From contig CAMJBT010000016.1 in the NCBI GenBank assembly GCA_946403965.1, positions 1 to 51,952 of the forward strand: DNA of 51,952 nucleotides, in the 5' to 3' direction. Made by a program: the position numbers and the translations under genes. This document shows positions 49,234 through 51,952 of this stretch, piece after piece. This stretch comes from an uncultured Pseudobutyrivibrio sp. (GTDB taxonomy: Bacteria; Bacillota; Clostridia; Lachnospirales; Lachnospiraceae). The notes under the pieces were generated by a model. It did no database searches. It saw only the letters and a list, made by a program, of their open reading frames with translations, and was not told where the DNA came from. Each line of letters starts with the position of its first letter. Within the stretch, counting starts at the first letter, position 1.

Positions 49234-50001
49234 ATGTTGATAGACGAGACTAAAGTAAAGGAACTATTTGCCAACTATACAAAAGACTATAATGCTGAAG
49301 ATCCAAAGATATCATTGAAGGTTGCTCATACCTATAGGGTGGCAGAAAATTCAAGATATATTGCAGAAAAGCTAGGACTGTCTGAGGATGATGTGATGCT
49401 TGCCTGGCTCATAGGAATGCTTCATGATATAGGTCGTTTTGAACAAATAAAAAGATATCAGACTTTCAGTGACGCTCAGTCTGTTGATCATGCAGAGTTC
49501 GGTGCTGATTTACTTTTTAAAGATCCTGTTTTAATTACTGAATACATAGAGACCAGGGAATTTGATGATTTGATTGAAATTGCAGTCAGACAGCATAACA
49601 AATATCGTATTTCCGAAGATTTAGGTGAAAGAACGACCATGTTTGCAAATATCATTCGTGATGCGGACAAGATTGATATTTTCAGAGTACAGGTGGAAGA
49701 GCCAATCGAAGGAATATATGGTGTGCCATTTGAATATATCAAAAAGCAGCCACTTACTGACCAGGTTTTTGAGCAATTTAAAGAAGGCCATGCAATTATC
49801 AGAAGCACTAAGAAAACCTATTTGGATTATTACGTAGGGCATTTTTCATTGGCGTTTGAACTTGTATATCCATGCAGCCGTAGGCTGACTTTAGAGCAGG
49901 GGTATCTGAAAAAGTTGCTTGAGCTTCAGGTCGAAGATGAGGAAGTCCAAAAGAAAATAGAGTATATAAAAGAAAAAATATTTCTATCTTTGGAGGGATA
50001 A
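49234..50001 (+). CDS. HD-domain phosphohydrolase
   Basis: A 255-residue metal-dependent phosphohydrolase. Ligands are visible: His32 in KVAHTYRVA, His64-Asp65 in GMLHDIGRFEQ, VDHAEFGADLLF, and a later DADKIDIFRV. This order is standard for single-domain HD proteins that may cleave nucleotides or phosphorylated cofactors. GGAGG lies about 12 bases before the ATG. The gene is unlinked to its neighbours by operon spacing. A 5'-truncated GH16 gene begins about 70 bases beyond its stop. Confidence 0.88.
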   Translation: MLIDETKVKELFANYTKDYNAEDPKISLKVAHTYRVAENSRYIAEKLGLSEDDVMLAWLIGMLHDIGRFEQIKRYQTFSDAQSVDHAEFGADLLFKDPVLITEYIETREFDDLIEIAVRQHNKYRISEDLGERTTMFANIIRDADKIDIFRVQVEEPIEGIYGVPFEYIKKQPLTDQVFEQFKEGHAIIRSTKKTYLDYYVGHFSLAFELVYPCSRRLTLEQGYLKKLLELQVEDEEVQKKIEYIKEKIFLSLEG

Positions 50002-50070
50002 AGAAGATTAAGATTTATAGGACAGATTAAATAAAGCTGTCTATATTCATCATTTTGATATTTATTCCTC

Positions 50071-51138
50071 AACGGACAACTCAAACTGACTATTGATAGG
50101 AATGATTCTGGATACACTGGGGGAGAATACAGAACCAAGAATTACTATGGCTATGGAATGTACCAGGTAAACATGAAGCCTATAAAAAATAGCGGAGTGG
50201 TTTCATCATTCTTTACCTATACTGGCGAATCTGATGGCACCAAATGGGATGAGATAGACATCGAGTTCCTAGGTTATGATACAACAAAGGTTCAGTTCAA
50301 TTACTACACTGACGGACAGGGTAATCACGAGTTTCTGTATGATTTAGGGTTTGATGCATCTCAAAGTTTTCATACCTATGGATTCAATTGGTACTATGGT
50401 GGGATCACATGGTATGTTGATGGAAAAGCTGTTTATACAGCAACAAGTAACATCCCAGATACTCCTGGAAAAATAATGATGAATGTTTGGCCAGGTATTG
50501 GCGTGGATGATTGGCTCAGGCCTTATGATGGAAGGACTGGAATCAGTGCGTATTATGATTGGGCATCTTATGATGCACCTGAGACAGGATCAGATTCAAA
50601 TCAGGAAAATCAGACACCTGCAAATGATACAAACCAGGGAAATACGACACCTGCAAACGATACAAGCCAAGAAAATCAAACAGCACCATCTTCTGGCACA
50701 TCAATGTTTGATTCCACAAAATCTTATAAACTTATAAATTATGGAAGCGCCCAGTCTCTTGATGTACAGGGAAACAGATATGATAATGGAACCAATATTT
50801 TGCAGTATCCGTTTAGCGGAAATCCAAATCAAAAGTGGTATTTCCAAAAAGAAGGTGATTGCTATATCATCAAATCTGCATCTACTGGAAAAGTGCTAAC
50901 TGTTGATAATTCAGCTACATGGGATGGCGCTAATGTTTATCAGTGGGATTACTATGGTGGCAACAATCAGAAGTGGGAGATTTATCCATCTGCAAATAAC
51001 ACATACAAAATCATTAATCACAATAGCGGTAAATGTTTAAATATCGCCTATGGCAGCAATGATGCCAATGCTAATGTAGAACAGTACCAGGACGTAGGTA
51101 GTAGTTATGAGCTCTGGTGGATTGATGTTGCAAATTAA
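50071..51138 (+). pseudogene. GH16 beta-glucanase (lichenase-like) with ricin-type module, 5'-truncated
   Basis: The frame is open from 50059, right after a TGA. GH16 similarity starts at [22 protein letters not shown]; signal peptide and about the first 50-60 residues are missing. The first ATG is 50158 (326 residues) without a ribosome binding site. The catalytic motif ExDxxE is intact in [10 protein letters not shown], followed by [15 protein letters not shown] and KIMMNVWPG. An Asn/Gln/Thr/Pro repeat linker (about 145-185) leads to a ricin-B/CBM13-like domain with [15 protein letters not shown] and YELWWI. Such enzymes cut mixed-linkage beta-glucan outside the cell. Without a signal it is probably non-functional, or a stored module. 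Confidence 0.8.
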
Positions 51139-51182
51139 TTGAGTTTTTATTTTATAAACAAGTAATATCAGGAATATTTGAA

Positions 51183-51223
51183 AAAGGGCAAGATATAGAA
51201 ATTCATATAGCTTGCTCTTTTTT
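51183..51223 (+). terminator. Rho-independent terminator after the GH16 gene
   Basis: Ten-base stem aaagggcaag / cttgctcttt (one wobble) with a long loop, and a run of six T. An intact terminator argues that the gene was once normal. Confidence 0.8.
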
Positions 51224-51253
51224 GTTGTGTTCATCAATCGAGACTGAGCATTT

Positions 51254-51651
51254 ACCAACACTAATTATCCTGCACTCTATTCGTGTTGCAAATATACAAA
51301 TGTTGGTTCCTATAAGATTGCAGAATCGATAGGTATAGATTCTTGTTTTTTCTCAGAAAAACAGGAATCGTAAATACCATGAAAATAGATTTATCTATTT
51401 TCATGTCCTGCAAAGCAGGATTCTTGCTGACAATTTCATTGTTTGGTCAGCAAGAAGTCATGACTTCTTGTGGGCTACTTAAGGAAAAAGCCCACAAGAA
51501 CCTGGCTTTGCCAGGCAATATTTTCTTTCAGAAAATATTGGTCTATGTCCGGTTCTTGATTTTCTGAAGAAAATCAAAAATCTATGCATTTCGCGAAAGA
51601 ATACCCAGATTCTGAAAATGACTTTACTCATGTATCGGTGATCTTTCGCGA
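51254..51651. repeat. Chain of consecutive hairpins
   Basis: Gene-free DNA made of perfect or near-perfect inverted repeats in a row. Pairs: 51254-51307 (7-base arms), 51338-51369 (13, one wobble), 51378-51405 (12), 51406-51420 (6), 51421-51456 (11), 51457-51464 (8-base palindrome), 51465-51500 (12), 51501-51515 (6), 51516-51540 (11), 51556-51577 (9), 51591-51651 (10). From 51378 to 51540 no base lies between neighbouring hairpins. A 20-base perfect palindrome (caagaagtca core) at 51451-51470 offers an alternative fold. Loops are 3-4 bases in most, 12-14 in two. No T-runs follow, so they are not ordinary terminators. Confidence 0.92.
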
Positions 51652-51732
51652 GGAGAAGTAATGGTTAAGAATGAGGGATAAGATGGCATCAATAAAGAGT
51701 ATTTTAAATGCTTTATTTCTCTCTAGCTTCAA
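51652..51732. other. AT-rich spacer before the tandem array
   Basis: No gene and no strong structure seen. It joins the hairpin chain to the tandem hairpin units. Confidence 0.5.
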
Positions 51733-51952
51733 TATACTGCCCTAAAGAGCCGCAGAGGGCAGTATAAATCCTAAAATGAAAAAAATATACTGCCCTAAAG
51801 AGCCGCAGAGGGCAGTATAAATCCTAAAATGAAAAAAATATACTGCCCGAAACAGCACTTTAGGGCAGTACAAATCCTAAAATGAAAAAATATACTGCCC
51901 GAAAGAGCAGATCCGGGCAGTATAAATCTCAAAATTAGAAAATATACTGCCC
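51733..51952. repeat. Tandem array of 52-53 bp hairpin units, runs off the window
   Basis: Units start at 51733, 51786, 51839, 51891 and 51943 (last one cut at ten bases). Each unit is a ten-base arm tatactgccc, a 14-base loop, the complementary arm gggcagtata (one change in unit 3), and an 18-19 base A-rich spacer starting aatc. Loops are identical in units 1 and 2 and different in 3 and 4, so the stem is conserved while the loop varies. On the minus strand each hairpin is followed by a T-run like a terminator. No cas genes are present. Confidence 0.95.

Follow-up and report, generated by a model that had tools for sequence, protein, structure and literature searches.

A chain of abutting hairpins in a Pseudobutyrivibrio acetyltransferase gene fragment reads as two units of a dispersed, probably mobile palindromic repeat family

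What places perfect hairpins end to end in a bacterial genome with no unpaired base between them? Such a chain lies in the window analysed here, the whole stretch of 51,952 nt of contig CAMJBT010000016.1 from an uncultured Pseudobutyrivibrio sp. The preliminary description had given seven abutting hairpins at 51378–51540, and this was exact: the stems at 51378–51405, 51406–51420, 51421–51456, 51457–51464, 51465–51500, 51501–51515 and 51516–51540 are contiguous, with zero bases between them. Chains were scored as runs of perfect stems of at least 6 bp with loops of at most 14 nt, 8-base palindromes also being allowed; under this rule the longest chain in the region has seven stems over 163 nt. 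The longest chain in 2000 dinucleotide shuffles of 51254–51651 was three (in two of the 2000), and 245 tiles from the window's first 49 kb gave a maximum of two. The folding energy of 51254–51651 corresponded to z values of -12.0 (+ strand) and -13.2 (- strand), and none of 100 shuffles folded as well on either strand. Both shuffled controls that had been proposed, for contiguous stems and for folding, thus set the region apart.

A search of the own genome for the hairpins, also proposed earlier, was performed with the region as the query and returned 73 matching places (pieces, overlaps and reverse-strand matches included). The break points of the region fell often at a shared AT and at the outer ends, by which the chain splits into homologous units, A and B. 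As judged from sequence comparison, the chain consists of two members of a single dispersed repeat family, units A and B, placed tail to tail and joined through one shared AT; each is about 123 nt in length with four hairpins. The order within a unit is P1, linker, P2, P3, P4, with ends AGRTT...AAGTC from which single copies depart (28 aligned units); the family end consensus is AGRTTYTTG...CAAGAAGTC. Unit A (51337–51459, + strand, 123 nt, AGATT...AAGTC) contains P1 at 51338–51369, P2 at 51378–51405, P3 at 51406–51420 and P4 at 51421–51456. Unit B (51462–51583, - strand, 122 nt) has ends and fold as in A with other stems, namely P4 at 51465–51500, P3 at 51501–51515, P2 at 51516–51540 and P1 at 51551–51582. 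The tail-to-tail junction GTC-AT-GAC (51457–51464) is the 8-base palindrome of the chain; it is one of 10 tail-to-tail pairs counted, several of which carry the same letters. The reuse of ttcttg/caagaa in neighbouring stems is real, because units A and B end in the same words. Further hairpins had been described on each side, which holds for the P1 of each unit; what lies beyond them are weaker pairings within both halves of an interrupted gene fragment.

This fragment is that of a GNAT acetyltransferase gene, interrupted by the pair. Its 5′ part (51264–51334, + strand) matches G000:C9:19321-19393 and is followed by the left flanking AT (51335–51336); the right flanking AT (51584–51585) precedes the 3′ part (51586–51661, + strand), which extends to the stop codon. 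The uninterrupted copy has GGT-AT-GCAT at this position, and contig C9 of the own genome reads GGTATGCAT uninterrupted across the insertion point. A 46-aa peptide from C9 was used as a query; its residues 1–23 match 51272–51340, and it matched ten other genomes of the genus, with 89–98% identity in nine (one of them, G022, with one in-frame stop codon) and 57% in G013. The 5′ flank was aligned to loci of six other genomes. Searched separately, the two flanks of the pair adjoin in seven fetched loci of six other genomes (L067 and L257 being the same place), where they overlap by 2 or 3 nt; the comparison of the locus among strains that had been suggested therefore found the gene fragment uninterrupted in six other genomes. 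The 46-aa fragment alone gave no match to Pfam; its relative in G028 (L253) is a 173-aa GNAT protein. Because the C9 copy is only a 53-aa open frame, the gene in the own genome may already have been a remnant before the insertion.

A second empty site was found by comparison of L013 with L076, which differ by 366 bp (non-element DNA included), and L017 and L062 carry units at differing points in one intergenic region. In G003, which we take to be P. xylanivorans MA3014, seven B copies with an identical 121-nt core lie at different sites, and, neighbouring A units and one 34-nt match (79%) aside, no relationship is seen between their 150-nt flanks. Gene conversion could also account for identical cores at several sites.

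Repeated palindrome formation or template switching in place, as envisaged in the preliminary description, is not supported by these data: the units occur alone or otherwise combined elsewhere, and the chain lies at an AT within a gene fragment of which uninterrupted copies exist. The position of the pair, approximately 0.4 kb from the contig end, is what chance, local template-switch palindromes or an assembly artefact have in their favour; given the shuffles, the uninterrupted gene copies and the fact that the same units turn up at independent loci and in other assemblies, there is practically no chance that any of these is the origin. An artefact specifically is unlikely because the same junction, like the units, recurs at other loci and in other assemblies. 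We consider it probable that the region represents two copies, of types A and B, of a mobile element that is small and non-autonomous, at an AT in the acetyltransferase fragment, since the units are dispersed and mostly AT-flanked, the window site has uninterrupted counterparts, identical-core copies sit at unrelated sites, and compensatory changes preserve the fold, which is found in a second genus too. An earlier suggestion tied the chain to a recombination, replication or single-stranded-DNA system; a link to DNA mobility is judged probable.

A model of the family gave 94 hits at E ≤ 0.01 (overlapping hits included), and queries A and B each also recovered copies of the other type. The compensatory changes were counted in 28 full-length units, which had been kept from 62 matches for alignment. 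In P1, P3 and P4 taken together 95.7% of 810 cells are paired, P2 being left out of the count as it is offset between A and B, and 16 of the 29 pairs have changes on both sides. None of 500 shuffles was as high as observed on any of five covariation measures, and sliding the partners by 1–3 columns left at most 54.2% paired. Substitution is lower at paired than at unpaired sites (0.047 versus 0.074 in B, 0.050 versus 0.073 in A). Both arms of P1 are swapped in three A units (L183:2141-2269, L192:5344-5472 and L217:2067-2195), AAAAA/TTTTT replacing TTTTT/AAAAA around an unchanged loop, which amounts to a compensatory change of five pairs.

Units were found in 25 of the 29 Pseudobutyrivibrio genomes searched, the own genome included, with copy numbers that are lower bounds as at most 12 candidates were scored per genome; the other four gave no match, and one of 32 other genomes gave a weak match. 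A 24-base pattern was located in 12 stretches among 84,980 species genomes, a collection that may omit near relatives of the window; 11 of these are titled Pseudobutyrivibrio and one Lachnospiraceae. Plasmids, phages and viral contigs gave no unit match (in one arm of this search with one exact 24-base pattern). Model R1 found three of 200 family genomes in two of 199 genera (own, G014 and G229), with stricter filters that may have missed weak matches. In six genomes (G015, G016, G019, G008, G022 and G018), nine B units (loci L203, L190 with three units, L196, L211, L184, L194 and L212) are identical in trimmed sequence, which suggests either recent horizontal spread or strong conservation.

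G229 belongs to another genus of the same family and contains a homologous 108-nt module with other stem sequences, in which the hairpin order is kept, the loop and linker words are similar and the ends are AGG...GTCA. Sixteen copies of the module were read. It is nested in a larger repeated element, although the L160 copy lies outside that element. The larger element occurs without the module at seventeen places (a count of adjacent pieces); the six of these that were read have one common junction that lacks a target duplication and, in L164, differs by one base. Such a common junction could reflect one loss rather than an insertion. The larger element is MITE-like, about 325 bp in length (L134:3918-4244) with long terminal inverted repeats (GGGGCTGTAAAAAATCAAAAT), and has many copies with or without the 108-nt module. 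Model R2, built from G229 alone, was run against 23 chosen sources and recovered most B units at 1e-7 to 4.5e-11 (one truncated B at 0.0045), C units, a third type described below, at 1e-4 to 4e-10 and several A units at 9e-6 to 4.5e-4; A units were missed in some of the 23 sources (e.g. L010, L014 and L183). Among 397 family genomes of 334 genera R2 found three, in two genera. Homology across two genera is supported because models from either genus recover the units of the other.

A structured RNA would likewise account for covariation and strong conservation. On this alternative, the units form a family of RNAs that function in the cell and were dispersed by duplication, mobility being secondary; it would explain the covariation in all three helices counted, the fold kept across two genera, the lower substitution at paired sites and the strong cross-species identity. 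Against it, the copies occur in both orientations and at varying sites, and units between co-directional genes are more often antisense (46) than sense (26; p 0.02, same-locus units counted separately). The excess of G-U over A-C cells is weak (42 versus 26, p 0.07) and was not decisive as a means of choosing the strand. Rfam at the gathering score matched only rRNA and tRNA on L133–L136, L013 and L062, which held the modules searched, and 50000–51952 of the window gave low, sub-threshold matches only, mostly to a tandem array there. We regard such an RNA family as very unlikely to be the primary explanation and retain the mobile element.

The forms of the element were surveyed over the fetched genus loci, in which 185 matches were typed as 116 B, 58 A and 11 C, type C having been defined from L237. 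Single-hairpin forms with the family ends, P1 alone or P4 alone, also occur. Ends within 12 nt of each other defined 26 abutting pairs, 14 of them in the own genome: ten tail-to-tail, three head-to-head and 13 tandem. All 26 are heterotypic, B being joined to A or C. Random pairing by type frequency would give this with a probability of 0.468 per pair and about 3e-9 for all 26, a figure that assumes independence for loci chosen by similarity to the A-B window pair, and hence favouring tail-to-tail A-B; the 16 other pairs by themselves give 5e-6. Tandems with a full or nearly full B have A or C then B (10 of 10), and those with a P4-only B have the reverse order (three of three). The simplest explanation of the strict heterotypic pairing would be that same-type neighbours are unstable: near-identical direct or inverted repeats would be lost, leaving the mixed A-B or C-B pairs. 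If so, such instability may be a simple reason why REP-like dimers are often heterodimers.

The ends and target sites were surveyed in 168 model hits at E ≤ 1e-4, reduced to 116 by a length filter and to 97 by a score filter (71 excluded). The 97 units comprise 27 A and 70 B, and ends were located in 86; the consensus ends are AGG or AGA...GTC. In left flanks not adjoining a unit (n = 69), position -2 is A in 62 and position -1 is T in 61; in right flanks (n = 75), A stands at +1 in 72 and T at +2 in 69. The left flank is A-rich from -10 to -5 (A 205, T 133) and without skew from -20 to -13 (A 182, T 189), and the right flank is T-rich from +5 to +10 (T 238, A 127); the right flank was counted only to +12, and these counts include related copies. 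Since some copies have no left AT (at least three near-consensus copies, L070, L214 and L077, and some diverged ones have AT on the right with other letters on the left), duplication of an AT target is unproven. Duplication of TA was ruled out, as many copies have CA at the left and TA at the right.

The same survey bears on a role in expression. None of the 97 units lies within an ORF of at least 100 aa, and the median distance from a unit is 67 nt to a stop codon and 144 nt to a start, the genes having been called by ORF length alone. Together with the A-rich left and T-rich right flanks, this is what would be expected of units that are mainly bidirectional terminators or stabilisers of mRNA 3′ ends and are retained for such use. 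The T-rich stretch, however, begins a few nucleotides past the unit and also flanks recent identical-core copies, and thus resembles target choice; it is quite unlikely that termination or stabilisation is the main explanation. For the mobile element, target composition that is reverse-complement-symmetric would lead one to expect an enzyme acting on double-stranded DNA. The single-stranded-DNA part of the earlier suggestion was not borne out to this extent, the symmetry leaning to double-strand insertion.

The movement of the units may be pictured as follows. An enzyme encoded elsewhere would recognise the folded or inverted unit ends and insert units into A-rich/YATR/T-rich sites, with unit ends as favoured targets for further insertion. 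Tentatively, and with rather less than even confidence, the four-hairpin fold (P1, AGACC-type linker, P2, P3, P4, ends AGG...GTC) may be the substrate or guide of an undescribed recombination system common to two genera of one family, one that would dispense with a Y1 transposase when inserting folded units at YATR sites.

The best known mover of comparable repeats was searched for directly. Y1_Tnp (PF01797) has no match in the own genome (94.8% complete) or in other unit carriers such as G007, G018, G021 and G022; matches, some of them fragments, were found in ten of the 29 genus genomes and in none of the other 19, own included, and G229 has four. The units were compared with eight genus Y1 loci using blastn and shared only short words with them (best E 0.35); for the G229 module against two of the four G229 Y1 matches the best E was 0.28, and the ends are unrelated. 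A Y1 transposase was rejected as the mover on these grounds (no own-genome match; unrelated ends at the 8 + 2 loci compared), and a Y1/RAYT transposase encoded by the own genome is probably not the mover. A wider form of this explanation holds that the units moved as REP/REPIN-type single-stranded DNA by an IS200/IS605-like Y1 (RAYT) since lost or missing from the assembly. The hairpins with short tags, the single and paired forms and the mosaic of inverted and tandem pairs, all of which recall REPs and BIMEs as far as the available text on these goes, agree with it, as do the Y1 matches elsewhere in the genus and in G229 and the G229 junction without target duplication. The missing Y1_Tnp in unit carriers, the Y1 loci with only short words in common, the absence of both GTAG and CGTC tags and the symmetry of target composition oppose it, and we consider it unlikely. 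An autonomous parent with the same right end as the units was not present at 20 fetched loci of 71 right-end words in four genomes; what lay there was units, forms with a single hairpin or words standing by themselves. In L066, an end word falls within an ORF that looks like an aminotransferase.

How does the family relate to known systems? It shares with MITEs a short, gene-less body and precise insertion, and its ends, which form imperfect terminal inverted repeats (AGRTTYTTG versus GACTTCTTG), may be a further likeness, but its target duplication is at most 2 bp and not proven, its internal hairpins are conserved by covariation, and no parent transposon was found among the 20 loci fetched, a partial search. 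The Correia elements of Neisseria are dispersed and intergenic, with a TATAG-like end, a TA duplication and an IS630-like parent; neither such a duplication nor such a parent was seen for the units.

In the text available to us, REP and BIME sequences are palindromes that occur singly and as mosaic inverted or tandem pairs, with hairpins that bear short tags; REPs are tagged by GTAG or CGTC, and REPINs are associated with RAYTs. Within that text, the family is like them in its intergenic palindromes, singlets and inverted or tandem pairs, compensatory changes and within-genome amplification. As in REP/REPIN, singlets and inverted doublets are present, but the doublets are of two types. The units differ in that the GTAG tetranucleotide is absent from the hairpin foot and no RAYT was found in the own genome; each also consists of four covarying hairpins, is in most cases flanked by AT and has a symmetric target, and the family occurs in Lachnospiraceae. 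The available part of the account of CGTC REPs (PMC3733652) describes families without a dedicated transposase, most of which prefer heterodimers while homodimers predominate in CGTC-1; the words Firmicutes and Clostridi are absent from its main text. To judge from that part, the likeness extends to palindromes that bear a short tag and a tail and for which there is no dedicated transposase, whereas the tag and tail of the present family are TGAC...CCT (P4 form, other strand), with no CGTC tag or CCA-like tail, and four-hairpin units are not among the forms described there.

The family therefore behaves like REP/BIME or MITE sequences, does not show all the defining features of either and is assigned to neither. 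It is best read as a new family of non-autonomous mobile palindromic elements that resembles REP/BIME/REPIN sequences and MITEs. No published description of this hairpin-unit family was recognised in a literature search made mostly at the level of listed entries. The units appear to be recently active, gene-less mobile palindromes of a rumen genus, and their best known mover was not found in the own genome. That some REP families have no dedicated transposase is an acknowledged gap, at least in the available part of the work on CGTC repeats (PMC3733652). For a search for the enzyme, the present family offers recent identical-core copies, empty sites, defined ends and a closed genome, presumed above to be P. 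xylanivorans MA3014.

Two features adjoin the pair. The truncated gene mentioned in the preliminary description corresponds to a GH16-ricin lectin gene at 50158–51138, which appears to be 5′-truncated because the GH16 match begins at model position 45 of 175; the gene fragment that contains the pair is another one, that of the acetyltransferase. On the other side, at 51731–51952, lies the tandem array, made of 52–53-bp hairpin repeats (ATACTGCCC...GGGCAGTAT). Similar tandem arrays are present on eight contigs of the own genome, and on five of these (C16, C17, C38, C39 and C45) a hairpin unit or a P1-like piece lies within about 200 bp of the array.
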